DNA of 64,000 nucleotides, from NCBI GenBank assembly GCA_017643365.1, contig JAEPNO010000015.1, positions 1 to 64,000 of the forward strand, read 5' to 3'. The position numbers and the translations under genes are program-made. Below the pieces are notes generated by a model. That model saw only the letters and a list, made by a program, of their open reading frames with translations, did not search any database and was not told where the DNA came from. Origin of the DNA: Balneolaceae bacterium (lineage in GTDB: Bacteria; Bacteroidota; Rhodothermia; Balneolales; Balneolaceae). Position 1 is the stretch's first letter; the number at the start of each line of letters is the position of its first letter. Of the stretch, positions 12,324 through 32,862 are shown in pieces.

Positions 12324-12411
12324 GCCGCGGTGGTGGAATTGGTAGACACGTTGGACTTAAAATCCAATGGCTATTACAATGGCCGTGCCGGTTCGAGCCC
12401 GGCCCGCGGTA
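12324..12411 (+). tRNA. tRNA-Leu (anticodon UAA)
   Basis: 88 nt, CCA not encoded. Acceptor GCCGCGG (12324-12330) pairs with CCGCGGT (12404-12410; first pair G-U). The anticodon arm ttgga-CTTAAAA-tccaa places anticodon TAA at 12358-12360. A long variable arm (ggctattacaatggcc) marks a class II tRNA, and the T arm is gccgg-TTCGAGC-ccggc. Its 3' end is the integration target of the island to the right; the gene is kept whole by the element. Confidence 0.97.
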
Positions 12412-12412
12412 C
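12400..12412 (+). repeat. attL: left attachment site of the island
   Basis: cggcccgcggtac covers the last part of the tRNA-Leu T arm and acceptor stem and is repeated exactly at 32850-32862, next to the integrase. The upstream flanks diverge at the C-C/T-C position, so the identical core is 13 bp. Confidence 0.88.
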
Positions 12413-15009: not shown

Positions 15010-18000
15010 TTACCCAACCTTAACCTCATTCATCTCTTTGATTCGTTCTACCAGGATATCGATCACCTTGGCCTTGTCGCGGAAGACGCCATCAATGCCT
15101 TGTTCATCAATAAAGTCGAAAGGTGGCTCATATAGGTTTGAAATTTCGAGATGTCCCTTCTGCGTGAAGAACTCGATCATCTGCTCAACGAATTGAATCT
15201 GCGTGGAGCTAAGGCGCTGATCGCTGAGAAACTCTCCAAACTTCTGCATCACAGCCTGACGTTCTAATCCGGATACTTCACGAACAAAACGAATGAGATC
15301 GAGTTCACCGCCTACCAGCTCATGAAATTCATCAGCACTGATTGCCGGGTCTACTTCCAGTAACAGCTGCTCCAAGGTCTCAACGTCTTTATCAGTGAGT
15401 GGCTGCGCGTTGCGGATTTTCTCGATAACTAGATTGTTGCCATGTTCTTCGATGAACTTTCGGATCTTGCGCAGGTAACGGTCTTTATCGATCAGCGGAC
15501 TTGTTGCAATTACATCATCAATTTCGATATCGCCAAAGGTATCCTGAAAGTCTGTGTAGACCGGCGCACGTTTCTTTTTCTCGATGAGCTGAATTAACTC
15601 ACGTACTTCTTTTCGAATCTCTTCCAGTTCAATGATCGGTGGAGCTACCCAGAAGTCTTCTGTGATGATCTTCTCAACAGATGTGAGAGCTTGCTTCACA
15701 GCCGGAATGTGTCGCTTCTCATACAGATGCTCACCAAAACCAATAACAATCTCTTTCGTCTTTTTTTGACCAAGCACGCCGTCCATACGTTCGTGCATCA
15801 GAGTAAGCATCAGCAAGTCGAAACGCCGTGCCGTTTCATCTTCGTTAAGCTCGGGCTGAATAAGCTCAGCTAGTTCTCGAACGATCTCCTTTCGCTCGTG
15901 GGATTCTAGATGCTCCCACACTGCCCGATCTTCCAATCGGTGTATGATGCGCAGATGTGGACGAACCTGAATGCTTTGCTTCTCTAGATTTGCTATCTGC
16001 TGGTGCAGCAAGTCTAACAACTGCGTGCGATAAGCTTTCAGCTCTTCTTGATGTTTGTACGGCTCGTTCTTCAGCTTCGCGGTGAGTAGCAATCGCTTCT
16101 CAAAGATCTGCGCACTTACTGAAGCTGATTGCGTGGTATCGAAGCCCTCAGGGTTTTGCTCAAAGAACTCGAAGTTTCCGCAGTAGTCGAAGATCAGGAA
16201 ATGCTTCTTATTCTGTCCCGGACCAAACAAATCAGGGCGTAAACGTGTACCCCGTCCAATCATCTGATTGAATTTTGCCTTTGATCGCACCGGCTTAAAA
16301 AAGACCAGATTCACACAGTCAGGTGCATCGATACCGGTGTCCATCATATCCACAGAAATAGCTATTGCCGGCATCTTTCCCGGTGCGCAGAAAGTATCAA
16401 TGAGATCCTGCGCATATTCAATCTGATTATCAATCACTCGTGCGAGGTGCCCCGCATACTTCGGGTAATTCTTATCGAATACTTCTTGTATAAACATGGC
16501 GTGACGGTGATTCTTCGCAAAGATGATCGTATCTCCTATGCGGTCTCCACCTTCTACTTTGATGCCATGTTCCATGAGTTGTTGCAGCACTTGCTCAACC
16601 GTGTCTTCATTAAAGAGCCACTGATTGAGTTTACCGGGATCTACGTGGTCAGGCACCGCGCCGGTCTCATCATCGGCAAGCAGGTCATCGTACTGCTTTT
16701 GCTCTTCCGGGGTTAGATCCGAATACTTAATCCCCTCTGATAAGAACTTCCCGAGCACCGAGATCTTTCTAGGTGGCACTAAGAATCCATCTTCTACAGC
16801 TTCCTCTAATCCGTAGGCATAGGTTGGACTGCCCTGCTCGGCGTTAAACAGGTTGTACGTATCGTGATCTACATCCTCTTTTGGAGTGGCTGTGAGACCT
16901 AGCAATAGTGAGTCGAAATAGTCGAAGATTGCCTGATACTTATTGTACACCGATCGGTGCGCTTCATCAATAATCACCAGATCGAAATAGCCCGGATCGA
17001 AACGTCGCTTACCTTCTTCAATCTTTTCAATCTGATTGAGGATAGTCGGATAGGTGCTGAATACAATACGCGCAGCTTCATCATTCTTTTCTCGCACTAA
17101 ATTTACGATCGGCACATCGGGTAGATGCTTCGCATAGTTATTGTACGCCTGTTTAACGAGTGCATTCCGATCGGCAAGAAACAAGACACGTTTTGCCCAC
17201 TTCTTTTTGAGCATCATGTCCACAATTGAGATGGAGGTGCGCGTTTTTCCTGTTCCCGTTGCCATTACAAGTAGAGACCTTCGGTGGCCTTCTTCAAAGC
17301 GCTCACCTACTCGGCGTATCGCTGCAATTTGGTAGTACCTTCCGGTTATGTCTTCATTGATCTCAGCAAGCTTGAGCGATTCTTTATTCCGGCGCTGAAA
17401 GAACAGCGTTTGAAGGCTGTCCTTGGTGTAGAATCCTTGAACCGGTCGGGGAGGATAATCGCTGTCATCCCAGATCCAGATCTCATAGCCGTTCGACAAA
17501 AAGATCACAGGACGGATTTGATAACGAGCTTCCAAACAATCGGCGTAGAGCTTTGCTTGATGTTGCCCCTCACCTACATCACGTGTGGTACGTTTTGCCT
17601 CAACCAGCGCAATCGGCTTACCGTCATCATCCCACAGCACATAGTCCACGTAACCGATTCCTGAGCCATTCGGCATTCCTTCCACTTTAAATTCACGCAC
17701 ATTAGGATCTGCCGGATTCCAGCCACTCTCGCGAAGCATCACATCAATCAATAGCTCGCGTGTGCTTGCTTCGTTGTAATCGTGATCATCGGCATACTTA
17801 CGCGTTTGCAAGCGCATCTGTTTGATCTCGCGATTGCGCTGCTGCAACACTTCATCCTTTTCTTCGAGAGACTGCTGCAATTTCCTTAAGGCATCAGCCT
17901 TTGCTTCCATTTCTTCTTCGAGCTGCTTGAGGCGCTGCTCGGTTTCCTTGTTCCCCGATGTGATGTCAGGCACCAGCGAAGGATCGAAGCTCTGCGATGG

Positions 18001-18390
18001 TTTAGGTGTGTCATCGGTGGTATAAGTGCGATACAGCCAATACATGATGTGAAAGGTTTCTTCGCACACTCTGAGGGCATCATGTTCGGAGATTCGCTTA
18101 TTCTCATGCACCGCCAGATTCCCCACCTTCCGAATCACCTTAATCTTTTCGTAGATGGTGTAGCCTATGATCTTACGGAAGGAAAGCTCATTGGTGATGT
18201 TGTACAGGCTTGTGTCGTAAGGGAGTTCGAGATCTTCGTCGTTCTTGTACATCCAAAGTACAACCTGCTCGATCAGGTATCGCGCACGCCCACAGGCTCC
18301 GCGTGGATCGAAGCGCACCAGCTTTTCCATCGCCTTAGCATCCTCGATGAACTCGCTCCAGTCTTGCTCTAGGAAGTTAAAATTGGACAT
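15010..18390 (-). CDS. hsdR: Type I restriction enzyme, R (translocase/nuclease) subunit
   Basis: 1126 aa. Domains in order: DUF4145-like N-terminal helical region (about 1-130), coiled coil (about 150-200), HSDR_N nuclease with PD-(D/E)xK residues in GYVDYVLWDDDGKPIALVEAKR, SF2 motor with Walker A MATGTGKTRTSI, DEAH box VIIDEAHRSVYNKY, LLGLTATP and motif VI QMIGRGTRLRPDLFG, then an EcoEI-type C-terminal region (REVSGLERQAVMQKFGEFL). It translocates and cuts DNA lacking the host methylation mark together with HsdM and HsdS. The partner genes lie 8.3 kb away beyond unrelated cargo, which is unusual. All catalytic motifs look intact. Confidence 0.95.
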   Translation of the reverse strand: MSNFNFLEQDWSEFIEDAKAMEKLVRFDPRGACGRARYLIEQVVLWMYKNDEDLELPYDTSLYNITNELSFRKIIGYTIYEKIKVIRKVGNLAVHENKRISEHDALRVCEETFHIMYWLYRTYTTDDTPKPSQSFDPSLVPDITSGNKETEQRLKQLEEEMEAKADALRKLQQSLEEKDEVLQQRNREIKQMRLQTRKYADDHDYNEASTRELLIDVMLRESGWNPADPNVREFKVEGMPNGSGIGYVDYVLWDDDGKPIALVEAKRTTRDVGEGQHQAKLYADCLEARYQIRPVIFLSNGYEIWIWDDSDYPPRPVQGFYTKDSLQTLFFQRRNKESLKLAEINEDITGRYYQIAAIRRVGERFEEGHRRSLLVMATGTGKTRTSISIVDMMLKKKWAKRVLFLADRNALVKQAYNNYAKHLPDVPIVNLVREKNDEAARIVFSTYPTILNQIEKIEEGKRRFDPGYFDLVIIDEAHRSVYNKYQAIFDYFDSLLLGLTATPKEDVDHDTYNLFNAEQGSPTYAYGLEEAVEDGFLVPPRKISVLGKFLSEGIKYSDLTPEEQKQYDDLLADDETGAVPDHVDPGKLNQWLFNEDTVEQVLQQLMEHGIKVEGGDRIGDTIIFAKNHRHAMFIQEVFDKNYPKYAGHLARVIDNQIEYAQDLIDTFCAPGKMPAIAISVDMMDTGIDAPDCVNLVFFKPVRSKAKFNQMIGRGTRLRPDLFGPGQNKKHFLIFDYCGNFEFFEQNPEGFDTTQSASVSAQIFEKRLLLTAKLKNEPYKHQEELKAYRTQLLDLLHQQIANLEKQSIQVRPHLRIIHRLEDRAVWEHLESHERKEIVRELAELIQPELNEDETARRFDLLMLTLMHERMDGVLGQKKTKEIVIGFGEHLYEKRHIPAVKQALTSVEKIITEDFWVAPPIIELEEIRKEVRELIQLIEKKKRAPVYTDFQDTFGDIEIDDVIATSPLIDKDRYLRKIRKFIEEHGNNLVIEKIRNAQPLTDKDVETLEQLLLEVDPAISADEFHELVGGELDLIRFVREVSGLERQAVMQKFGEFLSDQRLSSTQIQFVEQMIEFFTQKGHLEISNLYEPPFDFIDEQGIDGVFRDKAKVIDILVERIKEMNEVKVG

Positions 18391-18435
18391 CTCTACCCCT
18401 TATTTCTACAATTTGCGCCTTAATGTAGTAAAATC
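18347..18435. repeat. 89-bp direct repeat, authentic copy (hsdR 5' end and leader)
   Basis: Covers the first codons of hsdR and about 45 bases upstream. A second copy with 6 mismatches (my count) is at 22924-23012 in the same orientation, bracketing the Panacea/Fic/AbiE/422-aa cargo. Confidence 0.92.
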
Positions 18436-18583
18436 TGCTACTAATTTGCTTTGATTTACAGATTTTTAGTTAACTAGCGTAAACTAAAATGCCGATAAAG
18501 AGGTTGTTAAGGCATGCTATTTGCTACATGATAGTTATCAATCTAATTTCTGTTATATTCGATGGTCTAATCGAGGTAGGCAT

Positions 18584-19171
18584 ATGAACAAGTTTGAACT
18601 TGCGAAATACATTGCGGAAAAGTACTCAGGCACAGTGAGCCCAATGAAGCTTCAAAAGCTGCTGTACTATTGTTATGCTTGGCAGTTAGTTGCCGGTAAA
18701 AAGTACTTTGACGCCAGTTTCCAGGCATGGAAATATGGTCCGGTAGATCCCGACATCTTCTATGAGTTCAAGTCATTTAGTTCAAATCCAATTGTAGTTG
18801 AAGAGGCTCCTCTTATCCAAGAGCAGCTCATCGACTTTGTGCTTGATAGCTACGCGGTGTATTCTGCAATAGAGCTTTCTAAAACAACGCACGAAGAAGA
18901 ACCCTGGAAAATGCACAAGTCAACCGGTGGGCTAATTCCTGACGAGGCGCTTATCGATTATTACAGCCAGCAAGCTTTTGCTAAGAACTTCCCGATAGAA
19001 GAAGGCAAGACCTATTATCCGCCAAAGACATCCGCGCATTACGCCTTCACCTTCGACATGGATAAAGAGTATGTGCCAGAGTTTAGCAGTATTCACGAAT
19101 ACCTGGACAGCTTTTCTACTGAAAAGGCCAGACTCTCTCAGATGTTGAGTGATTATGGTATCCAAAGTTGA
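18584..19171 (+). CDS. Panacea-domain (DUF4065, SocA/GepA-like) antitoxin
   Basis: 195 aa from the ATG at 18584, preceded by gaggtagg (18573-18580); frames extending upstream add unlike-family sequence. SPMKLQKLLYYCYAWQLVAGKKYFDASFQAWKYGPVDPDIFYEF is the diagnostic core of the Panacea/DUF4065 domain, an antitoxin fold known to neutralise unrelated toxins. Here it directly precedes and overlaps a Fic gene by 17 bases, the expected antitoxin-toxin order. The C-terminal 70 residues (YYPPKTSAHYAFTFDMDKEYVPEF) may give toxin specificity. Confidence 0.85.
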   Translation: MNKFELAKYIAEKYSGTVSPMKLQKLLYYCYAWQLVAGKKYFDASFQAWKYGPVDPDIFYEFKSFSSNPIVVEEAPLIQEQLIDFVLDSYAVYSAIELSKTTHEEEPWKMHKSTGGLIPDEALIDYYSQQAFAKNFPIEEGKTYYPPKTSAHYAFTFDMDKEYVPEFSSIHEYLDSFSTEKARLSQMLSDYGIQS

Positions 19172-19829
19172 TCCCGCTGAATTAGAAACAACGCAAGACT
19201 TACTTGATGATTTCGCTGCATCTCAGGGTCTTACTCCGGAGAAAGTGTATAAAGATAGCTGGAGTAGGTATCAAATTTTACAGCAAACAAAAATCCGTTC
19301 TGTTTTTGATGATGAAACATTAAAAAAATGGAAAAGAAGAGATGTTTATGCAATTTTACCTCGTTTTATTCACAAATTTATTTATCAGGAACTTTTCACT
19401 TTTGCTGGCAACTACAGGCAAAAAACCGATCCTGGTAATGGCATTGTTCGTTTTGGACCGCAACACGGACATAAATATACCCAAAAATTTAGCGGTGATC
19501 CGCCAGATTTAATTGTAGAAGGCGTATATGAAGCAGTTGGACATTTAATCTGGAATGCTGAAGATCTGCTTTTACAAGCTATCCGATTTTACCAAAAATT
19601 TGTTAATGTACATCCCTTCTATGATGCCAATGGTAGGATCGCAAGAATGATAGCTAACATCTATTTAGCGAATCATGAATTGGTTCTTAGCTGGAAAGAC
19701 TTTGACGGGAAAGGGAAGTTCATTAAAAAACTTAATTATTGCCATAAGAACCCAACTGACGAGAGTTTCCAGTATTTAGTAAATCATATTCGCCCGTTTA
19801 TGTATACTTTGAATGAGGAAGATGCGTAA
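19155..19829 (+). CDS. Fic-family AMPylase toxin
   Basis: 224 aa starting at ATG 19155 (MVSKVDPAELETTQDLLDD); a GTG at 19149 is an alternative. The Fic motif reads HPFYDANGRIARMIANIYL: the catalytic His and the NGR anion hole remain, but the usual Gly before Asn is Ala, recalling Doc (HxFxDANxR). The beta-hairpin flap FTFAGNYRQKTDPGN and an N-terminal helical part are present. I see no [S/T]xxxE[G/N] inhibitory helix, so inhibition should come from another protein, fitting the overlapping Panacea gene. Target and transferred group are unknown. Confidence 0.88.
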   Translation: MVSKVDPAELETTQDLLDDFAASQGLTPEKVYKDSWSRYQILQQTKIRSVFDDETLKKWKRRDVYAILPRFIHKFIYQELFTFAGNYRQKTDPGNGIVRFGPQHGHKYTQKFSGDPPDLIVEGVYEAVGHLIWNAEDLLLQAIRFYQKFVNVHPFYDANGRIARMIANIYLANHELVLSWKDFDGKGKFIKKLNYCHKNPTDESFQYLVNHIRPFMYTLNEEDA

Positions 19830-19852: not shown

Positions 19853-20758
19853 TCACTTATCCCATCCTTTTTCAGGTGTCCAGACTTCAGTGATCTTTCT
19901 ATCCTGTGTGATCGCGACAGTAATTGGCCATAGGAAATATTGAAGCTTCTCAACGACTTCACTCAACTCACCAGGAGCTTCTGTATCTTTTAATTTTCGA
20001 TTGAAAGCTTTCCATTGAATTACTTTGTCTTTATCTCTACTAAAAATTGGAGTCAGTGCAGTTGGAATCTCAGCTGGCAATTCAGTTTTTCTTCGTTGGA
20101 AAGTGCTTTTTATTGCCGCTCCTAACTCTCCTCCTGTAATGCGTTGCGTGCCTGCTATGAACCAAATATCGTAGAAATCTTTCATCCTGCTGTTAGCCAG
20201 GTCTAAAGCAACCATAGCCTGGTACTTTTCTGCTACCACCGTTTCCAAAGGGTACCCTTGTAGTTTAGGTGACTCATGCTCTAATAAGGTTGGGTATTCT
20301 ATCCAAACAGGACCGGGAGTAACAGCGTCACCAAAGCCGATATCTACCTGCATCGAGATTATCGCATTTCCCAGATTCCCGGTAAATGTTACTCTTACAC
20401 CCTGATAAGCCTGCTCTTCTCTTATTTCTATACCCCGAACGGAAGCTGCATCAAATAATAAACCATCATCCAACGGGACAGCACAACAGGTCCGAAATAC
20501 GTCTTCCAGTACTTTAATATCCTCGGTAGACTCGCTTAGCAAATCAATATCCTTGGTTGGACGGGATTGTCCGATTCCAGTGGCCTTTAGTAACAATGCG
20601 CCCTTCAGAATAAATGCATTTGCGTATTCGGTACTTGCCATCCGGTACAAAAATCTTTCCATGGCATAGTATTGTAGCAATTCCTGAAACGGCCGTTTTT
20701 CTTGCCTTGCCTTATTAATTAATCGCTGATGAACCGATGCCGCTACGTTTTTAGCCAT
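19853..20758 (-). CDS. AbiEii-type nucleotidyltransferase toxin
   Basis: 301 aa. AFILKGALLLKATGIGQSRPTKDIDLLSES carries the nucleotidyltransferase GS-like and DxD residues, and PLETVVAEKYQAMVALDLANSRMKDFYDIWFIAG is the hallmark motif of AbiEii/AbiGii. Known members are type IV toxins that add nucleotides to tRNA or halt growth in phage defence. The start overlaps the AbiEi gene by 8 bases, indicating coupling. The motif I glycines differ from the classical GGxxL...GS pattern, so activity is likely but not certain. Confidence 0.88.
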   Translation of the reverse strand: MAKNVAASVHQRLINKARQEKRPFQELLQYYAMERFLYRMASTEYANAFILKGALLLKATGIGQSRPTKDIDLLSESTEDIKVLEDVFRTCCAVPLDDGLLFDAASVRGIEIREEQAYQGVRVTFTGNLGNAIISMQVDIGFGDAVTPGPVWIEYPTLLEHESPKLQGYPLETVVAEKYQAMVALDLANSRMKDFYDIWFIAGTQRITGGELGAAIKSTFQRRKTELPAEIPTALTPIFSRDKDKVIQWKAFNRKLKDTEAPGELSEVVEKLQYFLWPITVAITQDRKITEVWTPEKGWDK

Positions 20759-21371
20759 GCGTAATGCTCTCCAGATAGGGCTTCATTACTTTTTCTACCC
20801 GGCAAAGTCGTGCGTATTCCAGAATCTCTCTCACCGTGGCTTTCTTTTCTGAAAGAGTTCTCTTGAGTGCTTCCACCGCAATAGTCAGCCCGATTTGATT
20901 CCGAAATTTGAAGCAATCGGACACTGTTTTAGCCGGAGAAAACACCTTAAGCGCTGCACCATCCTGATTATGCACTTGAATACCGGCTGCTAGCGTGGGC
21001 TCTGAAAAGCGATACACCTGAACCGGCGGATAGTCAAAGGCTGGGTCTCTGCTGGTGCGAGGTATTGCAATGTGTACTTCGTGGGGAATTTCATCCGTCA
21101 GGTTATGGAACGACAGCGCCGAAATCAGACATATTCTGGCTTCGGGAATCTTTTTTGCCACCACCACCAGATCGGGGTTACTTAGCGGGTCCATTTCAGT
21201 AAGCTGATAAAGCCCTCTTTCCAAGGGTGTAATTTTCCCCTTATCCCGCATGGTGTATAGAGTGCGATCATAAATCCCGGCTTCCTGCGCTTGTTTTGTG
21301 CGCATAACTCCTCCATGATCTTTAAAGATCTGTATAGCTTCGTTTATCTTTTCCTGGGAGACATACATCAT
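20751..21371 (-). CDS. AbiEi-type antitoxin/repressor
   Basis: 206 aa. An N-terminal winged helix (QIFKDHGGVMRTKQAQEAGIYDRTLYTMRDKGKITPLERGLYQL) is followed by the conserved AbiEi region LISALSFHNLTDEIPHEVHIAIPR and VFSPAKTVSDCFKFRNQIGLTIAVEALKR. Family members repress their own operon through inverted repeats and counter AbiEii without direct binding. A matching inverted repeat overlaps its upstream region at 21384-21409. Confidence 0.88.
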   Translation of the reverse strand: MMYVSQEKINEAIQIFKDHGGVMRTKQAQEAGIYDRTLYTMRDKGKITPLERGLYQLTEMDPLSNPDLVVVAKKIPEARICLISALSFHNLTDEIPHEVHIAIPRTSRDPAFDYPPVQVYRFSEPTLAAGIQVHNQDGAALKVFSPAKTVSDCFKFRNQIGLTIAVEALKRTLSEKKATVREILEYARLCRVEKVMKPYLESITHG

Positions 21372-21580: not shown

Positions 21581-22849
21581 CTATCCCTTTTCATCTTTCT
21601 GAGTGCCGATTGCTTCAAATTCATCCACAATTTCGATTCGTTCTGCTTTGGATATAAAGCCTATCTCTTCAAGTTCTTCAATAAAAGCCTGATCACTGAA
21701 ATCTTCGTAGGTAGGGTCAAAAATGCGTTTCTCTATCTTAAATCCTTTCATAATCGACTCGATAGTAGGTAAAGATATAGTTCTTGCTTTCTGAGACGCG
21801 TAATCTTCGACAAACATGGTGAACTGTGCATCTCCCTGGAATCGAACTAATTTCTCCGGTGGTTTTTGCTTGTATAGTTGAACCAACTCCTCTTTCAGGC
21901 GTTTCCTGAGATTGATCATCGAAGCAAATATATCTCTTTCAATTTCCTGCTGAACAGCTTTATACTTTTCGGTGAGATCGTATACTAACCGGTTAAACTC
22001 TGCTAAGTGTTTTGTGTGCAGAACACTCTTTTTTCTGGATCGCACTCGTTTGAGAAGCTCACTTCTAATCCGATCCCCTTCCTTCGCAATTTCAGCTAGT
22101 GTTTCTTCGAGCTTTGAACTCGTTTCATCATCAAAAACATTTAGGCGTGTTTGGATTTGATCTCGAAGACTTTCATCCACCAGGTTCAGGATATCATTCG
22201 GAATCTGAACCATTCGGTTATGTACTTTGATCCCATGTACCTCAAACTCGATAAATTTTATTTTGGTGGAATACACATCCAGCAACCTTTTAAAATCCGG
22301 AGAAGGTGGCGGATTTTGCTCGATTTCAACCATCACTTCGTCAAAGGCTTCCTCATCTAAGGCTTCCGGTTTAACCTCATATTTGGTTGAGTACCTTGAA
22401 GGGATATTCTCACTGGTGATAATAATTTCAGGGTCTCCGTCTTTCTCAAAGAAGGCGTAGAGCAATTCCTGCCTGGTCATGTCATTCATGCAGATAGCAT
22501 TGGGTCCCTGCGGATTTTTTTCGATGACGCGACTTTGAGTAAACAGCATCCAGCCCGAATCTTCCGACATAATAAAGCCTAAGCGGTGATTGGGAATTTG
22601 CTTAATCGAAATTCCTGAGCCTGTTAATTTTTGAATTGCGTCTACACTTCCGTAGTGACTTCTAAATGCTGTTTCTGTAGGATCGATAACCAGTTCTATG
22701 TCGAGCTTTGGGTTCTTCTTCTTAGCCTCCACAATACCCTCCGCCAGTTCATCAAAAAGACCCGGTAGTGCCGCATACCAATACTGCTTTGCAGCAAACA
22801 AATGATCCAGAATGTGTTGATACTGTACAGTTTGAATAATTGACCCCAT
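21581..22849 (-). CDS. Unknown 422-aa protein, possibly PLD-like N-terminus
   Basis: No family is recognised with certainty. The first 150 residues (helix, then LDIELVIDPTETAF, IKQIPNHRLGFIMSEDSGWMLFTQSR) have the layout of a phospholipase D/nuclease half-site, but the His-x-Lys signature is replaced by NHRLGF, so any such domain would be degenerate. Residues 200-310 are charged and helical (LEETLAEIAKEGDRIRSELLKRVRSRKKS) and probably form a coiled coil; the tail is acidic. No membrane segment. It lies between the AbiE operon and the decayed hsdR 5' copy, so a defence role is guessed only from context. Confidence 0.6.
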   Translation of the reverse strand: MGSIIQTVQYQHILDHLFAAKQYWYAALPGLFDELAEGIVEAKKKNPKLDIELVIDPTETAFRSHYGSVDAIQKLTGSGISIKQIPNHRLGFIMSEDSGWMLFTQSRVIEKNPQGPNAICMNDMTRQELLYAFFEKDGDPEIIITSENIPSRYSTKYEVKPEALDEEAFDEVMVEIEQNPPPSPDFKRLLDVYSTKIKFIEFEVHGIKVHNRMVQIPNDILNLVDESLRDQIQTRLNVFDDETSSKLEETLAEIAKEGDRIRSELLKRVRSRKKSVLHTKHLAEFNRLVYDLTEKYKAVQQEIERDIFASMINLRKRLKEELVQLYKQKPPEKLVRFQGDAQFTMFVEDYASQKARTISLPTIESIMKGFKIEKRIFDPTYEDFSDQAFIEELEEIGFISKAERIEIVDEFEAIGTQKDEKG

Positions 22850-22923: not shown

Positions 22924-23012
22924 ATGAACTCGCTCCAGTCTTACTCTAGATAGTTAAAATTGGATATCTCTACCCCATATTGCTACAATTTGCGCCTTAA
23001 TGTAGTAAAATC
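22924..23012 (-). pseudogene. Decayed second copy of the hsdR 5' end (89 bp)
   Basis: Matches 18347-18435 in 83 of 89 positions by my alignment. Read leftward the former start codon is ATA instead of ATG and the codon for Gln-9 is a stop (ISNFNYLE*DWSEF), so it cannot be expressed as hsdR. It is a scar of duplication or of an earlier hsdR at this place. Confidence 0.9.
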
Positions 23013-23110: not shown

Positions 23111-23512
23111 TTAAAGCTTCTCTGGTTTTGCAGAATTAGGGGTCACAAGTAATCCAAACGGTTTAGATAAAGTCTTAACTGTGTCTTTCACTGTTTTCCA
23201 TCGTTTAATGTAAAAAAGTACCAGGTCCCAATATTTATACCCCTTCTTTGGTGGTTTGAAAAATACCACACCTAAACCATGCTTTTTATATAACTCTCTT
23301 TGATGCTGCACCCTATGAATATTGCGATCCTGAGTGATAACTATTCCATCTTCTTTTGCAACTTTTGGAATCCACTCTTCATCAGGCGTTCCTGCTCCAA
23401 AAACTTCTTTTATTGTAAAGACTTCAATCTTCTCATCTGTACGTGGATTTTGGAGAATTGCTAACGCTTGAGCAATGTTTGGACTTATGTTTTCGTCAAT
23501 AAAGAACTTCAT
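23111..23512 (-). CDS. DUF5615 PIN-like toxin
   Basis: 133 aa. MKFFIDENISPNIAQAL is the first acidic strand of the PIN-like fold; GAGTPDEEWIPKVAKEDGIVITQDRNIHR supplies the other acidic residues (Asp/Glu and Asp). This family is a VapC-like presumed RNase. It overlaps the DUF433 gene by 4 bases (ATGA), the standard antitoxin-toxin arrangement for this pair. The tail after residue 100 (KRWKTVKDTVKTLSKPFG) is longer than in minimal members. Confidence 0.82.
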   Translation of the reverse strand: MKFFIDENISPNIAQALAILQNPRTDEKIEVFTIKEVFGAGTPDEEWIPKVAKEDGIVITQDRNIHRVQHQRELYKKHGLGVVFFKPPKKGYKYWDLVLFYIKRWKTVKDTVKTLSKPFGLLVTPNSAKPEKL

Positions 23513-24192
23513 GCAGCATTTCGCTTCATGTATGCAATTACATCCTCCACTGCACTCTCTTCTAGTTCGTAAATCGAAGAGATAAATTCTGCAGATTCCC
23601 CGGCATTTAACAAGTTAGATATGGTATCCACAGTAATGTTTGTACCCTTGATTACTGGTTGCCCAAAGCTATGATGTGGATCAACAACTATATGATGATT
23701 CTTTCCAAGAGGCCAAAACCTTTGTGCCAATTGAGTATTATCCTTGAAATCAATTTTCTTACAATATGGAGCTACTAGATTTGTGAAAGAGAACTGTTTT
23801 GTTTTATCCATCTCAAGAATAGAATCTTGAAAATGATCAAGAAAAATTCGATTCCCATCAGTCATCAATTTTGCATGGGCAAAAGGGTATGCAGTTCCGA
23901 GTATTTCTGTTAGATCGGCATGGGCAAATTTAATTTTTGAGAAAGGAACACCTAACTCACGAAAGGAATCCACTGCAATTAGCTCAATTAGGGTATAAAA
24001 GTTAAATGCTTTTCCACTCTTCTCACCCCAAGTATATCCTGAACTATTTCTATTTAGAAATTCGTACTCCCAGTATTTATTTACCCACCGGCGTACTTTA
24101 GTTATAGGCATATTCAAAATCATTGATGCTTCCGGAATCGAATAAATCCCACTTCCAAGTTCTGGTTGTACTATTGTTGCAGCTGCTGTCAT
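23509..24192 (-). CDS. DUF433 antitoxin with N-terminal MerR-like helix-turn-helix
   Basis: 227 aa, two to three times the length of minimal DUF433 proteins. The C-terminal 60 residues (FGQPVIKGTNITVDTISNLLNAGESAEFISSIYELEESAVEDVIAYMKRN) are the DUF433 domain. The N-terminus YSIPEASMILNMPITKVRRWVNKYW is a MerR/excisionase-like HTH, so it can probably bind its own promoter. The middle (60-150) is not recognised. It forms an operon with the PIN-like toxin. Confidence 0.85.
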   Translation of the reverse strand: MTAAATIVQPELGSGIYSIPEASMILNMPITKVRRWVNKYWEYEFLNRNSSGYTWGEKSGKAFNFYTLIELIAVDSFRELGVPFSKIKFAHADLTEILGTAYPFAHAKLMTDGNRIFLDHFQDSILEMDKTKQFSFTNLVAPYCKKIDFKDNTQLAQRFWPLGKNHHIVVDPHHSFGQPVIKGTNITVDTISNLLNAGESAEFISSIYELEESAVEDVIAYMKRNAA

Positions 24193-24257: not shown

Positions 24258-25010
24258 TTATTCGATCACATCTGTAGAAATGTACTCTAGAAACCGCTCA
24301 CCCAAAGCAGTAATTTTATCACTCTTACCCGTTTGATAATGATTTGAAAATTGGTCTGCAAAGATATTTGTTGAAACTAAACCCATTGAATGTAATTCAA
24401 CCCATTGTTGGTTTACCAAATCAAGCTTTTGTTTATACTTAGGAAAAACACTCAGAAATAGCGTTGCAAGACGATCTGTTTGATTATTGAGCTTGGGATT
24501 CCCAGTTTCTTCTAAAAATTTGTGAGGATTCCCAACCATCTTCATCATTAGAAACTGAGTAGTATCCATTCTTTCAATTATTCTCAGGAATAAGCTTACT
24601 TCCTCATCATCTATATTCTGAGACTCAATTCTAATTGCAGAGTTTATCACTATGGCTTTCAGCGCTTCCAGCTTCTCTTTCTGATGATTCTGCTGAGCCA
24701 ACAGAATGGCCTTAGTTATGGTGGTGTTAATCTCTTTGCTATCTGCCAACTCCTGAATACTTATTTTGCCCTCTTGCTCAAGATTATAAATTCGCGTAGC
24801 TAAATCTTGCACGAATTCCTTTTCCTTTTTTTGGTGAAGCGGTAAAATCAGTGTTGTGATTAATTCATATGCTGGACCTAGGCCAACAACCGATGCAATT
24901 AGACCTAGTGTCTTATCTCGCGCTTCACTAGCCTCAATCTCGCGTTTTTCTCTAATATCACCGGATAATTCCATTTTCGAACCTATTTCTTCTTCCCCTT
25001 CTCCATTCAT
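24258..25010 (-). CDS. Unknown protein divergent from the amidohydrolase
   Basis: 250 aa, acidic N-terminus (MNGEGEEEIGSKMELSGD), then a short hydrophobic stretch LGLIASVVGLGPAYELITTLILPL (about 31-54), then an all-helical body (EKLEALKAIVINSAIRIESQNIDDEEVSLFLRIIERMDTTQFLMMKMV) and an end GERFLEYIS. This layout (helical sensor-like body, 'Gl...lG..Fl.yi' ending) recurs in unassigned proteins of defence islands, but no named family is certain. It is transcribed away from the amidohydrolase gene with 159 bases between. Confidence 0.6.
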   Translation of the reverse strand: MNGEGEEEIGSKMELSGDIREKREIEASEARDKTLGLIASVVGLGPAYELITTLILPLHQKKEKEFVQDLATRIYNLEQEGKISIQELADSKEINTTITKAILLAQQNHQKEKLEALKAIVINSAIRIESQNIDDEEVSLFLRIIERMDTTQFLMMKMVGNPHKFLEETGNPKLNNQTDRLATLFLSVFPKYKQKLDLVNQQWVELHSMGLVSTNIFADQFSNHYQTGKSDKITALGERFLEYISTDVIE

Positions 25011-25169
25011 TTATCTTACACTTTCTTGTTAATTCTAAAATCTACCTTGGGCACCGCCTAAATTCAACTACTTGTTCTTGAATCTAGTCTTTAACCCAAA
25101 ACCACATAGCTATGTGTTTTAAGATTAACCGAAATTTTTTTTATTGAGGTTTAACAAACCACTCTCATT

Positions 25170-26684
25170 ATGTCTTATTCAGAAAAACAACAAGCTTTTA
25201 TTAATAAAGCTAATGATACTATCAGCGATGACCCATCAACCCGCCTCGGCCCTGTAGCTAAAAGAATTGTAGATAGAAATGAATTTGTCATCGATGCTCA
25301 TTGCCATATTTTTGACGGCGACTGTGTAAAAGTCACCTATTTGGTAGCTCGTTTTCTCATCAGTTTTTCTGAGTTCCTTCCACCAAGAATTTATTGGGCC
25401 GTTAAGAAAATTTTTAGACGAATATTCGGACTGATCTCTTTCGATGTGAAATCGACTGAACTATTCATAAACGATTTGTTGCCTGGCCAAAAAAGCAGTT
25501 TTAATCAGCTTTCAGACATGGATTTCCAGAATGAGATTGATCAATCTATTGATGACTTTATTGACGAAATAAACAGCTTTTCCGTTAAGAGCGACACACA
25601 TATTGATGTGGATAATTTCCTAAATGAATTTGAACGGGAAATAGATGAACTGGAGAAACAATTAGAAACATCGGTTGAACTCTATTCAGGTGCTCATAAA
25701 GTAGCTATTCTTGGTTTTGACCGACGAGGCTTTTTCCGAAGACTGCGACATATTATCAGCCTTCTACGGTCGAAAACAATGAAAACAGTGCTTAATCGCT
25801 TTGAAGATGAGTACGCTATCAACCGGGTTTACAATAAAGAGTTTGGAGCCAACAATGAACAACTCTCGATAGTACTAGGTATGGATTTGAACAGCGGATG
25901 GGATGGGTCGAGCGAAAAAAGTTATACCCAACAAAACAATGAACTTGGTGCACTTAGCCAAACCGAAGGTATTCTGCCATACTTGCCCATTGATCCTAGG
26001 CGAGCAGAAAAGGATGGCGAGGAAAATCTATACGAAGCATTTTTAAAAGCCTTTAATAAAGACAATCCCACTTATTTTGGTGTTAAGTGCTACCCAGCCC
26101 TTGGGTATCTACCTTCAGATGCACGCCTGACTCCTATTTTTGAAATATGTGAGAAGAAGAATATTCCTATAATTACCCACTGTGGTGGTGAAATGATCTC
26201 TACCTTTGATAACCCGGTTGTTGTGTACCGGGGTAATGCACGCGAAGAAATCGATGATCAAAAAAGGAAGCATCGGGCTCGAAAGCTGAACGAACCAATC
26301 GAATGGAAACCGGTACTGGAACAATTTAATGATTTACGGCTCTGTCTTGGGCACTTTGGCGGTAAAGGTGCCTGGAATGGAAAGCCTGCTACGAAAGACC
26401 GAATTCCAACTATCTTACAAATGATGGCCGATTACCCGAACCTCTATGCTGACTTCTCATTTAATCTGGAATCGGATAAAACCGTAAGTGCGTTTACCAA
26501 AAAGTTATTTGCAGATGATACAGACAGTAAACTAATGAGTAAAAGAACCCTTTTTGGAACTGATTTCTGGGTGGTGTTGCCCATGTCTGATTTAAACAAT
26601 GACCAGAGATCGTTTCTTAAGGCGGTGAAAGGTTATGAAAAACAACTACTAACAACGAATGTACGGAATTACCTAGGTATATAG
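25170..26684 (+). CDS. Amidohydrolase-family TIM-barrel protein with helical insertion
   Basis: 504 aa. Metal-site residues of the amidohydrolase-2 type appear in order: FVIDAHCHIFDGD (HxH, about 43-52), YFGVKCYPALGY (Lys), IPIITHCGGEM (His), LCLGHFGGKGAW (His) and LFGTDFWVVLP (Asp, near 463). Between the first and later blocks, about residues 60-230, there is a non-family insertion with hydrophobic LVARFLISFSEFLPPRIYWAVKKIF and a long acidic coiled stretch. Such hydrolases act on C-N or C-C bonds of small molecules. The substrate is unknown and its place inside a split restriction locus is unexpected. No signal peptide. Confidence 0.8.
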   Translation: MSYSEKQQAFINKANDTISDDPSTRLGPVAKRIVDRNEFVIDAHCHIFDGDCVKVTYLVARFLISFSEFLPPRIYWAVKKIFRRIFGLISFDVKSTELFINDLLPGQKSSFNQLSDMDFQNEIDQSIDDFIDEINSFSVKSDTHIDVDNFLNEFEREIDELEKQLETSVELYSGAHKVAILGFDRRGFFRRLRHIISLLRSKTMKTVLNRFEDEYAINRVYNKEFGANNEQLSIVLGMDLNSGWDGSSEKSYTQQNNELGALSQTEGILPYLPIDPRRAEKDGEENLYEAFLKAFNKDNPTYFGVKCYPALGYLPSDARLTPIFEICEKKNIPIITHCGGEMISTFDNPVVVYRGNAREEIDDQKRKHRARKLNEPIEWKPVLEQFNDLRLCLGHFGGKGAWNGKPATKDRIPTILQMMADYPNLYADFSFNLESDKTVSAFTKKLFADDTDSKLMSKRTLFGTDFWVVLPMSDLNNDQRSFLKAVKGYEKQLLTTNVRNYLGI

Positions 26685-26698
26685 ATCGGGTAGTTCCC

Positions 26699-27889
26699 TC
26701 ACCCAAACACCTCTTGCACCAACGACGAAAACAACGCTTCGGATTTTAATAAGCTATTTTCTGTTTTACTTTTTTCTACTCTGATTCTATTAATATTTTT
26801 CTCAAACTCTTTTTGCAGCCCCAAAGGTGGAAGTACAACTGGTAGTTTTTTGATCGGCCCTAAAAATAAATTTGATTGGCTAGAAGTATTAGCGCTTTTT
26901 GTCATTTCAGATTGCAAATATTCAGATTGCAACATACTCTCCAAATAGGTGGAGTTAATTTTTTCTTTAGTTGGTTTAACAAGTGCCACACTTCTAACCA
27001 TATTAAATGGTTCATGTATATTGACTTTTGTAACCCTTCCAATTGTTCCAGAGCAAGATATAAGAATATCTCCAAATTCAGGAAGACATCTATTTATCAT
27101 TCGATCATATTCTTCTTGAGGTATATGATCAACCTTTTCTTCTAAGTCGATATATCCATTTTTAATATTTCTCGCGGACAAAAGCATTATACCCGTTTCC
27201 GTTCTGTTTGGAGTTTTGTGATCTCCATCAGTCACTTTTTCAGAAATATCATCAATAGTTAGTTTTTCAAATCCTTTTTCATTTGACCGAAGATCCCCGA
27301 ACATTTCCAAAAACACGCTTTGGATGAGTTGATCGTATTTCGCGAGCATGGCTTTGTCGATGTCGATCAGGCGCTGTGCCCGGTCGAGCTTGGCAACAAT
27401 GGCTTTCTGCTCGGAAAGGCTCGGAAGGGGGATTTTGACTGATAATAAATCACGTTTGCCTAAATTAATTTGCAATCCACCTCCAGCAAACTGTTTATAG
27501 TAATTTTTTACTATTTCCCTATTTAGTACATAATTTAAGTAACCGAAACTAACTGCTTTTCTATCGTATTCAAGCTTCCCTACTCGCTGATTAAGAAGTA
27601 CATTTTTACCGTTAGTTTTAACTAAAGTAGGAACCCCAAGTATCTTTGGCTCATTAGCCATATCAGTCATTGCTATAATCACATCATCATCATGTAGACG
27701 ATAGCTTTCATATTTATCATAAAAATGATCCGGCAAGTATTTTGGGTTATAACTAAGATCAAATTTTCCGTCTGGCCTTATATTGGACATTCGACAATTA
27801 AGAGTATTGCTATAATCGATGTAATCTTTCGATTTAAACGCATGACCATTTTTTAGATCAGCAATCTCACTTAGTTTCACTACCCTCAA
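26699..27889 (-). CDS. hsdS: Type I restriction-modification specificity subunit
   Basis: 396 aa with two target-recognition domains (about 1-150 and 210-350), each ending in a conserved helix: LPSLSEQKAIVAKLDRAQRLIDIDKAMLAKYDQLIQSVFLEMFGD and LPPLGLQKEFEKNINRIRVEKSKTENSL. The halves define the bipartite DNA target. Its start overlaps the hsdM stop by 4 bases. The TRDs are AT-rich relative to hsdM, as is usual for exchanged recognition domains. Confidence 0.94.
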   Translation of the reverse strand: MRVVKLSEIADLKNGHAFKSKDYIDYSNTLNCRMSNIRPDGKFDLSYNPKYLPDHFYDKYESYRLHDDDVIIAMTDMANEPKILGVPTLVKTNGKNVLLNQRVGKLEYDRKAVSFGYLNYVLNREIVKNYYKQFAGGGLQINLGKRDLLSVKIPLPSLSEQKAIVAKLDRAQRLIDIDKAMLAKYDQLIQSVFLEMFGDLRSNEKGFEKLTIDDISEKVTDGDHKTPNRTETGIMLLSARNIKNGYIDLEEKVDHIPQEEYDRMINRCLPEFGDILISCSGTIGRVTKVNIHEPFNMVRSVALVKPTKEKINSTYLESMLQSEYLQSEMTKSANTSSQSNLFLGPIKKLPVVLPPLGLQKEFEKNINRIRVEKSKTENSLLKSEALFSSLVQEVFG

Positions 27890-29361
27890 ACCATCCCCTC
27901 CAACTCATCCAGGATGTGAAGTCGTTCTTCCGCCAGCTGGCGTAAGCCGGGTTCACCGTCTTTGCCGTTTATAATTTCCATCGGGGAATCGTACTCTACG
28001 GCTTCGTATTCAATCTCTTTGTAGCGGTTAATGGAGAGGTCGTAGTTCTGCTCCACAATCTCGGCTTTGGGCACTAAAAAGCTTTGCTCAGTTCGCTTGC
28101 GATCGGTTTCCTCCTCCAACTTGTGGTAACGCGCCACAATATCGGGGAGGTCGTTGTCCTCAATAGCATCGCGTTTGTCATCCAGAGAGTAGCCATCGGC
28201 TTTCATGTCGTAAAACCATACGTTATCGGTTCCACCCGAGTTGGTTTTGGTGAAGATCACTACCGCGGTGCTCACCCCGGCATAGGGTTTAAACACGCCG
28301 CTCGGCATCGAAATAACGGCGTTCAGTTGCTGCTCTTCTACTAAAATCCGGCGCACTTCTTTATGCGCTTTGGAACTGCCGAACAACACGCCATCGGGCA
28401 CCACTACGGCTGCACGTCCACCCACTTTTAACGCCCGCAGAAACAGCGGAAAGAACAACAGTTCGGTTTTCTTGGTCTTTACCGTTTGCAGTAAATCGGT
28501 AGCCACACTGTCGTAATCCAGCGAGCCCTTAAACGGGGGATTGGCAAGGATCAGATCGTAGCGTTCGTCCATGTCTTCGCCCTCGCTGCTCAGCGAATCC
28601 TTGTAATCGATGGTAGCGCCGTCAAAGCCGTGCATCACCATGTTCATATTCCCGATGCGCAGCATAGAATGATCGAAATCGTAACCACTAAACATTTCTT
28701 TCTGAAAGTGCTCGCGCGTGGCGTCATCCACCATGGCCGACGCATAATGATCGCGGATGTATTCCCCGGCTGCCACCAGGAAACCGGCAGTACCACAAGC
28801 GGGATCACAAATATTCTCTTTGGGTTTGGGATGCGTGAGATCCACCATCATTTTAATGATGTGGCGAGGCGTACGGAACTGCCCGTTCTGTCCGGCCACA
28901 CTCAGCTTACTCAGCATATATTCGTAGATGTCGCCCTTAGTGTCGCGGTCGTCCATCTCCAGCTGATCCAGCAACTCTACCACCCGCGCCAGCGTAGACG
29001 GTTTCGGAAACATGAACAGCGCGCCTTCCATGTGCTTGCGGAAGGTACTCCCGTTTTGCCCGCCCAGCTCTTTGATGAATGGAAACACCTGATCGCGGAT
29101 CACATTGAACATCTCCTCCGGACCGAGTTGCTTCAGGTTCCTCCACCGCATGTTCTGTTGATCCGGCGCAAAGGTAGTGTTCTCCAACGGCTTTCCTGTC
29201 CGTTCTGCCTTTTTCTCGGCTTTCAGCTGCTGATCATCCAGCCCTTTAATAAACAACAGGTAGGTCAGCTGCTCGATCACCGTTAGAGGATTGGAGATCC
29301 CGGCTGTCCAAAGCGTTTCCCAAATTTTATCGACTTTATTTTTTAATTCGCCTGTGAGCAT
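27886..29361 (-). CDS. hsdM: Type I restriction-modification DNA methyltransferase subunit
   Basis: 491 aa N6-adenine methyltransferase. An N-terminal HsdM_N helical domain is followed by SAM-binding DPACGTAGFLVAAGEYI and catalytic DLILANPPFKGSL (NPPF motif). It methylates the target to protect self DNA and forms the core with HsdS. hsdM-hsdS are coupled; hsdR is far downstream on the same strand. It is GC-richer than its immediate neighbours. Confidence 0.96.
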   Translation of the reverse strand: MLTGELKNKVDKIWETLWTAGISNPLTVIEQLTYLLFIKGLDDQQLKAEKKAERTGKPLENTTFAPDQQNMRWRNLKQLGPEEMFNVIRDQVFPFIKELGGQNGSTFRKHMEGALFMFPKPSTLARVVELLDQLEMDDRDTKGDIYEYMLSKLSVAGQNGQFRTPRHIIKMMVDLTHPKPKENICDPACGTAGFLVAAGEYIRDHYASAMVDDATREHFQKEMFSGYDFDHSMLRIGNMNMVMHGFDGATIDYKDSLSSEGEDMDERYDLILANPPFKGSLDYDSVATDLLQTVKTKKTELLFFPLFLRALKVGGRAAVVVPDGVLFGSSKAHKEVRRILVEEQQLNAVISMPSGVFKPYAGVSTAVVIFTKTNSGGTDNVWFYDMKADGYSLDDKRDAIEDNDLPDIVARYHKLEEETDRKRTEQSFLVPKAEIVEQNYDLSINRYKEIEYEAVEYDSPMEIINGKDGEPGLRQLAEERLHILDELEGMV

Positions 29362-29880: not shown

Positions 29881-30666
29881 ATGAGCGAAAGTAAGGACGA
29901 ATTAAACAAATCGATTTCTTGGGGATGGCTTATTGTTGTATTGATTATGGTGCTATTACTCTGGTCAGCCAACTACTTCATATTAAATGACAATTCTCAA
30001 AAAGGAGTTTATGGCGATATGTTCGGTGCAGTTAATGCGCTTTTCTCTGGATTTGCATTTGTAGGCGTTATTTACGCGATACTACTGCAAAGAAAGGAAC
30101 TTGAACTTCAGAGAATAGAATTGGCTCAGACTAGAGAAGAACTTGAAGGACAAAAATTGGAGATGAGACTTCAGAACAAAACGTTGAGAAAGCAGGCTTT
30201 TGAGAATACTTTCTTTCAATTGTTAACTCTTCATACCGACATAACCACCTCACTTAAATTTAATCGTTCTGAAGGTAAAGAAGCATTTACCGAATTATTT
30301 CATGGACTTTCTAATAATTGGCTTGTACGAGGCAATGTAGATGAACTCGTAAAGATAAATTTAAACTACCTAGAGTTTTATAAAGTCAACAGTGCATATA
30401 TAGGACATTACTTTCGGAGTTTATATAATATTTTCAAGTTTATAGATCAGAGTGAAAATGAGAATTAAAGGTTATACACAAATTTAGTAAGAGCACATTT
30501 GTCACGATACGAACTACTTCTTTTATTTTATAACTGTCTTAGTGATTTAGGAAACAAGAAGTTTAAGCCGCTTATAGAGAAGTACGCTTTGCTCAAGACC
30601 GTACCTAAAGACGCATTATTTAGTAGAGATCATTTAGATTTGTACGATAAAAATGCTTTTGAATAA
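29881..30666 (+). pseudogene. AbiC-like phage abortive infection membrane protein, interrupted by an in-frame stop
   Basis: The first 195 codons encode a putAbiC-type protein: two N-terminal TM helices (WLIVVLIMVLLLWSANYFI; AVNALFSGFAFVGVIYAILL), the coiled coil LQRKELELQRIELAQTREELEGQK and AFENTFFQLLTLHTDIT. A TAA at 30466-30468 stops it, yet the same frame continues 65 codons (RLYTNLVRAHLSRYELLLLF...SRDHLDLYDKNAFE) to TAA at 30664-30666, and that continuation is the usual AbiC C-terminal motif. So a single stop, or a small in-frame deletion making TAA, splits one gene. The upper part may still be expressed as a truncated protein. Confidence 0.8.
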
Positions 30667-31494: not shown

Positions 31495-32712
31495 TTAGAA
31501 GAGTTGCTCCATCTCACGATCCAGTAAATCCTCATCAAAGTTTTTCAGATAGGTCTGTGTAGTCTTAAGGTTAGAGTGTGCAAGTGCATTTGATATGGCA
31601 TACATATTCATCCCCATATTGGCTGCATGCCTAGCAAAAGAGTGTCTCGAAATATGAAAAGAGATATGGGTTTCAATGTTGGCTAGCTCTGCAATCTTTC
31701 TGAGGTCTAGATTTACTAAAGAGTTTAATCGGCTTTTTTCTCGATCATACACTTCAGGAATTGAGTAATCCACCCCATCCTCTAATAAAGGAAATATGTA
31801 GTCACTTTCGTTTTGGTGCTTAATGTAATAACCCAAAATCTCGAGGCTCTGATCATTCAATCGGATGTTCTTCCACTTGGGATTAGTATTGTTTACGCTC
31901 TTACTCATTAGGTACCTAAGCCGTCCATCTTGAATGTTATCCCACTTTAACCGGCATAAATCACCGAATCTTATACCGGCATTGTAGAAAGAGAATAGAA
32001 AATAGTTTTTCGAATGAAATACACGAGTACCCTCTTCTAAATCAAGCTTTTTGATATCTAAAATTTGCTCAATACTTAGCGCTTCTTTTTTGCTTTGTTG
32101 CCTCGGTGGTTTGCGATACACATCAAATGGATTTTTATCAATTACCTCTTTCTGAAATGCATCATCCATTATCATCTTCAACCTCTCCATATCTTTAACA
32201 ATCGTATTTTGAGCATTGCCGATGTTATTTCTAAGGAAGATCTCAAAGTCCTCCAGAAAAGCCGGAGTCAATTCTGTAAGCTCAAGATAGTCTGCCTGAA
32301 CCATTCGCTTCAACTTATTAAGTAAAACTGTTGTCTGTTTCCTTCTACGAACAGCACCCATTTTATCTAGCCTATCACAATACTTCTTAGCATAGGTGAA
32401 AAAGTTCTCCGGATTAACTCCCTTGAGCCTATCCACAATGTTCTTCGAAGATAGCTTCTTTTGTTTATCGAGTTTGAATCCAATCTCCTGAGCTTCATAT
32501 ACGAGCTGTTCAAGTTCATGGTTAAGCACTTTATATGAAGTATGGCTTCGTCGAATCTCCTTCTTATCTGGATTCCAGTACTTTTGCTCAATTTTAATGC
32601 CTGTGAAGTAGAGGCTTTTCTTTCTGTTGTATGTGACTCTTAGGTAAAGAGGTACATGCCCCTGACTGTTAATCTTATCACGACGAATGAACAAATTGTA
32701 TGATGGTTTCAT
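31495..32712 (-). CDS. Tyrosine site-specific recombinase (island integrase)
   Basis: 405 aa. An N-terminal Arm_DNA-bind_5-type domain (PLYLRVTYNRKKSLYFTGIKIEQKYWNPDKKEI), a SAM-like core-binding domain (about 105-200) and a catalytic domain with the full set: Arg in NAGIRFGDLCRLKW, HisxxArg in HISRHSFARH, His in LAHSNLKTTQTYL and nucleophile Tyr in the same block. It catalyses integration and excision of the island at tRNA-Leu. Transcription runs leftward, starting 138 bp from attR. It looks intact. Confidence 0.96.
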   Translation of the reverse strand: MKPSYNLFIRRDKINSQGHVPLYLRVTYNRKKSLYFTGIKIEQKYWNPDKKEIRRSHTSYKVLNHELEQLVYEAQEIGFKLDKQKKLSSKNIVDRLKGVNPENFFTYAKKYCDRLDKMGAVRRRKQTTVLLNKLKRMVQADYLELTELTPAFLEDFEIFLRNNIGNAQNTIVKDMERLKMIMDDAFQKEVIDKNPFDVYRKPPRQQSKKEALSIEQILDIKKLDLEEGTRVFHSKNYFLFSFYNAGIRFGDLCRLKWDNIQDGRLRYLMSKSVNNTNPKWKNIRLNDQSLEILGYYIKHQNESDYIFPLLEDGVDYSIPEVYDREKSRLNSLVNLDLRKIAELANIETHISFHISRHSFARHAANMGMNMYAISNALAHSNLKTTQTYLKNFDEDLLDREMEQLF

Positions 32713-32849: not shown

Positions 32850-32862
32850 CGGCCCGCGGTAC
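32850..32862 (+). repeat. attR: right attachment site of the island
   Basis: cggcccgcggtac, an exact copy of the tRNA-Leu 3' end at 12400-12412. The upstream sequence no longer resembles a tRNA, as expected for the displaced half. Confidence 0.88.

Follow-up and report, generated by a model that had tools for sequence, protein, structure and literature searches.

A 250-aa helical protein (HP) and a 504-aa amidohydrolase (AH), encoded head to head in a Balneolaceae genome, are probably two independent passengers of one mobile restriction island: HP belongs to the restriction operon as an accessory, and AH would be an enzyme of protease/STAND-type immune modules. The preliminary description of this DNA had suggested that the two might form one two-gene defence system, a proposal that falls with the absence of their co-occurrence in the other genomes searched. 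Both genes lie within the window, by which we mean the whole 64,000-nucleotide stretch of DNA analysed, inside a ~20.5-kb integrated island (12400-32862) that sits at a tRNA-Leu gene and is bounded by a 13-bp att repeat. The site is empty in a sister species of the same genus (G123, locus L214), where the flanking genes are 835 bp apart versus about 21 kb in the window, and where the sequence downstream of the tRNA-Leu gene matches the window from 32847 onward. Neither AH nor HP is a chance open reading frame, because both have homologues elsewhere. The features of the island are as follows.

12324-12412, plus strand: tRNA-Leu(taa), the integration target, whose final 13 nt are attL
15010-18390, minus strand: HsdR restriction subunit, final gene of the operon
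18521-19829, plus strand: two slot-cargo genes opposite in strand to the operon, a Panacea (SocA-like) antitoxin (18521-19171) and a Fic/DOC protein (19149-19829)
19853-21371, minus strand: slot cargo consisting of the type IV toxin-antitoxin pair AbiEi/AbiEii (at 20751-21371 and 19853-20758)
21581-22849, minus strand: 422-aa protein of no known family, slot cargo
22924-23012, minus strand: decayed duplicate of the 5' end of hsdR, leader included
23111-23512, minus strand: PIN-like protein (PIN_10/DUF5615), probable toxin, slot cargo
23509-24192, minus strand: DUF433 protein with a helix-turn-helix-like N-terminus, probable antitoxin for the PIN protein, slot cargo
24258-25010, minus strand: HP, 250 aa, helical, accessory gene in the hsdS-hsdR interval with a weak phrog_26838 match
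25011-25169, no strand: divergent intergenic region of 159 bp with an imperfect dyad
25170-26684, plus strand: AH, PF04909 amidohydrolase of 504 aa, opposite to the operon strand (from the open reading frame, Pfam, the structural model and the alignment)
26699-27889, minus strand: HsdS specificity subunit (from its position after hsdM and the similarity of its counterparts in other operons)
27886-29361, minus strand: HsdM, methylase subunit of the type I restriction system, with which the operon begins
31495-32712, minus strand: tyrosine integrase of the island
32850-32862, plus strand: attR (CGGCCCGCGGTAC), which repeats the 13 nt of the tRNA-Leu end and closes the island on the right

The starts of HP and AH diverge across the 159 bp between them, and the ends of AH and HsdS converge to within 14 bp. 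Between the two starts lies an imperfect dyad (25091-25128; core AAAACcACATAG/CTATGTGTTTT), followed on the plus strand by a run of T, which could be an operator or a hairpin. We claim no promoter here, since consensus-scan matches to the Bacteroidetes -33/-7 promoter were about as frequent as in shuffled sequences. Elsewhere in the window, 29881-30468 encodes a 195-aa protein whose C-terminal end matches AbiP/putAbiC, possibly a truncated abortive-infection gene.

HP and the interval between hsdS and hsdR

HP is an accessory gene of a type I restriction operon. The window operon is complete, with hsdM, hsdS and hsdR and with HP between them, and the same holds for L058-L061 and L074-L076. A profile of HP recovered eight full-length copies and one fragment from 92 genomes of the same family; one full-length copy, in G397, is broken by a stop. 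All eight full-length copies lie between hsdS and hsdR, and all belong to one HsdM/HsdR operon subtype, the HsdM proteins of the HP-bearing operons being 70-86% identical to that of the window. The general layout is hsdM-hsdS-(cargo)-HP-(cargo)-hsdR. Its plainest form, hsdM-hsdS-HP-hsdR, is found in L061, where HP is the only cargo and its start overlaps the end of hsdS by 4 bp. AH is present in none of the seven HP operons other than the window's, and AH relatives occur without HP, so the co-occurrence that had been put forward as the test of the pair was not seen. Because HP sits in its operon without AH elsewhere, the divergent pairing of the two is a local accident.

The preliminary description had placed HP in no known family. 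This stands as far as Pfam (no family above the cut-off), NCBIfam and PADLOC are concerned and has to be qualified by a match to phrog_26838, a phage family of unknown function (6.4e-8). HP has no confirmed match in IMG/VR. A peptidase assignment was rejected, as the weak PF16218 match does not reach the cut-off and HP shows no catalytic set. The single-sequence AlphaFold model of HP reached a pLDDT of 43 and was left out of the fold searches.

The interval that holds HP is a slot for varied cargo. Across the operons it carries AbiE, DUF433-PIN, Fic, TIR and Zorya genes, and the HP-bearing operons themselves also carry a TIR protein (in L059 and L075), an AbiE pair, a DUF433-PIN pair and proteins of no known family. 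Four operons of the subtype have cargo without HP (Fic, AbiEi, DUF433-PIN). Within L058 (5454-18345), Zorya II ZorA/ZorB and a helicase-nuclease gene stand between hsdS and hsdR. The slot of the window holds AH, HP, DUF433-PIN, the 422-aa protein, AbiE and Panacea/Fic. AH is found in the slot of only 1 of 12 operons, that of the window, where it runs against the operon strand, and its placement may therefore be recent or accidental. The window slot also preserves a direct repeat of 89 nt, in which 22924-23012 is 93% identical to 18347-18435 and the relic start codon has changed from ATG to ATA. As this relic of the hsdR 5' end lies behind the PIN gene, hsdR once directly followed PIN, and the block of the 422-aa protein, AbiE and Fic came later.

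A dedicated divergent defence system made of AH and HP is very improbable. The two genes are adjacent and divergent and share a 159-bp control region with a dyad inside a defence island, and to this extent their head-to-head arrangement is real, but it is not repeated in homologues: HP keeps the same place between hsdS and hsdR in the seven other operons that lack AH, no HP gene stands beside any AH homologue among the loci read for neighbours, and the linkage occurs in no searched genome except the window's. Another reading, which concerns HP only and which we regard as quite possible if somewhat doubtful, takes HP to be a mobile defence or counter-defence protein that is encoded by a single gene, is independent of the restriction enzyme and has the restriction operon as a mere landing place. 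In its favor, distant kin of HP are solitary, on Planktothrix and Hymenobacter plasmids, in a Vibrio integron-like cassette array that includes DUF3265 genes, and within a Pseudomonas phage, and the phage and Vibrio kin match phrog_26838, as HP does. Against such a free element, every full-length copy in HP's own family is in the operon, and HP overlaps hsdS by the 4 bp seen in L061. One of the Planktothrix relatives adjoins type I restriction genes. As an operon accessory, HP may back up the restriction enzyme or be held in check by it, like PrrC and other operon-embedded genes.

Type I restriction operons are already known to harbour embedded genes. PrrC/EcoprrI and the Campylobacter jejuni rlo genes are extra genes within type I restriction loci, PrrC being a latent suicide enzyme that guards against anti-restriction (PMC2610378, PMC3874165), and 'RM guardian' genes have been described in type I restriction operons (PMC12707154). 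HP shares with PrrC and rlo the kind of position it occupies. It differs from these in that it is small and helical, without an ABC ATPase and without recognised nuclease residues.

The amidohydrolase and its family

AH is intact and belongs to a family of amidohydrolases centred on the Bacteroidota. It matches PF04909 (Amidohydro_2; 3.1e-12, 47.3 bits against a curated cut-off of 26.4), and its site is complete (H44, H46, K306, H337, H395 and D465), the whole set being kept in 35 of the 36 aligned sequences. The earlier account of a 504-aa enzyme with apparently complete metal-site residues is thus borne out in its coordinates, its family match and each of these six residues. The AlphaFold model of AH is a TIM barrel (mean pLDDT 88, pTM 0.89) with an all-helical insertion at residues ~55-225. 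This insertion had been called unrelated, a view we could not uphold. The distance from the HxH motif to strand 2 is ~73-89 aa in the outer relatives, ~114-128 aa in the trypsin- and CHAT-linked clades, 139-149 aa in the window's clade and 191 aa in the window AH itself; because the segment lengthens stepwise within AH's own relatives, the insertion is home-grown rather than a foreign domain.

Among solved folds in the PDB, the nearest by Foldseek belong to LigJ, dihydroxybenzoate decarboxylase, dihydroorotase and ACMSD, with identities of 8-15%, and a profile search found no solved relative by sequence. Foldseek also matches SfbO, AibH1H2 and PtmU3, diiron oxygenases that share this fold; they might hint at oxygenase chemistry, but these matches are indistinguishable from those to the hydrolases. 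In the viral library the only good matches were two ACMSD-like proteins of a giant virus, which are uninformative. Like the ACMSD-LigJ group of PF04909 and the dihydroorotases, AH combines the TIM-barrel fold with the motif order HxH...H...H...D; it differs from them in its long helical insertion and in having no sequence match to a solved structure. Dihydroorotases carry a metal-bridging carboxylated lysine after strand 4. The invariant K306 lies at the end of strand 304-307, which we take to be the dihydroorotase-like position after strand 4 as opposed to the single-metal ACMSD type, and hhalign pairs it, weakly, with the lysine of E. coli PyrC (P 0.0026, probability 11.5%). The lysine is not unique to AH, as a further Amidohydro_2-like protein encoded in this genome carries one in the corresponding motif. 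AH is a putative binuclear-metal hydrolase, with two metals predicted.

A scan of 84,980 species genomes for AH homologues yielded 80 loci. In a tree of the 80 sequences, the window AH falls in a nine-member clade (support 100/100) that is nested in a 25-member clade (100/94). No match to AH was found in phages or plasmids, and IMG/VR gave two distant matches only. No PADLOC model matches AH or HP.

Immune neighbors of the AH relatives

The relatives of AH are repeatedly encoded next to proteases. In the 25-member clade, an EAD11-trypsin gene lies directly upstream of the AH gene, on the same strand, in L085, L087 and L088 and is fused to it in L086; a receiver-trypsin (assigned from its sequence for the receiver part and from Pfam for the trypsin) lies directly upstream in L089 and is fused in L100; and a CHAT protease lies directly upstream in L090, L092 and L093, all of these being counts of related sequences and not of independent cases. 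The same upstream position is taken in L091 by an endonuclease/phosphatase-like protein and in L095 by an EAD11 protein with an unassigned second domain. Motifs in the partners are intact, both the His/Asp/Ser of the trypsins and the His/Cys of CHAT. In L085, L086 and L088 the operon continues with EAD11-X, whose N-terminus is EAD11 or EAD11-like, and then with an NTPase of ~880 aa whose NACHT/NPHP3 matches are weak. Since EAD11 is rare, with 4 of 198 Bacteroidota genomes carrying it, chance does not explain why it recurs beside AH, though the loci are mutually related. Taken by class, an EAD or protease effector is encoded with AH relatives in L085-L088 and L095, and an NTPase of NACHT/NB-ARC type in L085, L086, L088, L143 and L145.

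Several arrangements in the family stand out in their own right. The Bacteroidota operon EAD11-trypsin/amidohydrolase/(~248-aa protein)/EAD11-X/NACHT-like NTPase spans 8926-15135 in L085, 8867-15760 in L086 and 8961-15888 in L088. In two Flavobacterium genomes, a SMEK/NB-ARC NTPase gene overlaps the AH-family gene (L143, 6343-11155; L145, 6367-11164). A patatin-like phospholipase gene adjoins an AH relative in L040 (7416-10423), L041 (7516-10454) and L114 (9677-12702), with a 4-bp overlap in L040 and L041. In a distant AH clade, an upstream membrane protein of ~340-430 aa without a Pfam family is conserved (L126, L129, L131, L142, L146, L148-L150, L152-L154), and in some of these loci a membrane-dipeptidase-like gene follows.

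Outside the 25-member clade, neighbors of AH relatives include the SMEK/NB-ARC NTPases of L143 and L145, patatins (L114, L127, L134), metallophosphoesterases and other hydrolases. In the clade of the window AH, L079 encodes the Septu proteins PtuA (4e-164) and PtuB (5e-73) and a CBASS cyclase (9e-89) downstream, and L078 has, within a few kb, genes that by eye resemble hsdM and hsdS in sequence. Three further members of this clade, L077, L080 and L081, lie among ordinary genes. We saw no protease partner for the window AH or its nine-member clade, and no EAD domain, protease effector or NACHT/NB-ARC NTPase among the window genes scanned. Catabolic operons, which the preliminary description had named as a setting that would refute its proposal, were not seen around close homologues: many are beside proteases, STAND/NACHT-type NTPases, Septu or CBASS, and others among ordinary genes.

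The main rival for AH is a metabolic or detoxifying hydrolase that has no defence role and is in the island by chance, which we consider unlikely. The close homologues among ordinary genes speak for it, as do the structural neighbors that include the catabolic LigJ and ACMSD and the presence of AH in the slot of just one of the twelve operons. Trypsin-like proteins that are repeatedly linked to AH relatives, and in two separate cases fused with them, are, on the other hand, atypical of catabolism, as are NACHT, NB-ARC NTPase, patatin, CHAT, Septu and CBASS neighbors, and dedicated catabolic pathway genes were not seen beside close AH kin. Ranked after this, and distinctly less probable, is an antidote or signal-removing enzyme that would damp the neighboring module by hydrolysing its product or second messenger. 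One near relative close to a CBASS cyclase would suit such a role, and AH is the constant member beside varying proteases and nucleases; yet most partner modules lack a nucleotide cyclase, no feature of the site indicates phosphodiester cleavage, and damping would predict toxicity upon loss of AH. From the neighborhoods of its relatives we infer instead that AH is most likely a metallohydrolase component of defence modules, carried in the window as cargo. The earlier proposal that a hydrolase in this restriction island serves defence would thus survive for AH alone, with moderate probability and on a firmer basis than before, and not for the HP-AH pair. AH might still turn over nucleotides or a second messenger, as the preliminary description had suggested.

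A possible immune role for AH and its relation to known systems

AH may act as an enzymatic component, most likely an effector or co-effector, of protease/STAND-type immune modules. Its target would be a small molecule or a peptide product with an amide, ester or cyclic bond to cleave, and this hydrolysis may either deplete a metabolite or process a product released by the protease. The fusion of AH with trypsin suggests that both act in one complex, and the presence of EAD domains and a STAND-like NTPase points to activation upon infection. In the window, AH would have lost its protease partner, or never had one, and would ride as single-gene cargo, the enzyme presumably acting alone in the window's clade. 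More tentatively, the AH family may contribute to NLR-like immunity in bacteria a metallohydrolase not described so far, which NACHT/NB-ARC proteins would control and which would fire alongside EAD11-trypsin or CHAT proteases; a derived clade (the window AH and L077-L084) would then serve as stand-alone single-gene defence in restriction and Septu/CBASS islands.

Conflict systems with EAD, trypsin and caspase components were described by Kaur et al. in 2020 (PMC7159879) and in a 2021 follow-up (PMC8195603); in the 2020 study, caspases have alpha/beta-hydrolases as partners, and trypsins have Trypco proteins (PMC7159879). The relatives of AH follow a similar logic of protease plus partner, with EAD11-trypsin or CHAT and NACHT-like NTPases beside them, whereas the window AH has neither EAD nor protease. 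The word "amidohydrolase" is absent from both PMC7159879 and PMC8195603, and in the literature searched, which covered few subscription journals, we found nothing that ties an amidohydrolase to defence or EAD systems. Within that literature, the link between AH and immune operons appears undescribed. Septu, CBASS, Zorya II, AbiE and Fic are neighbors of AH or HP homologues, whereas AH and HP themselves fit none of the PADLOC models.

The analysis corrects a plausible but wrong gene pair. The restriction operon in which the two genes meet shows exchange of immune cargo between hsdS and hsdR at a single locus, with the relic of one exchange still readable. If our reading of AH is right, the family would add a new enzyme class to the protease/STAND-type immune operons of bacteria, and the operon of L085, L086 and L088, together with the equivalent of D465, would offer a defined target for finding the molecule that is cleaved.
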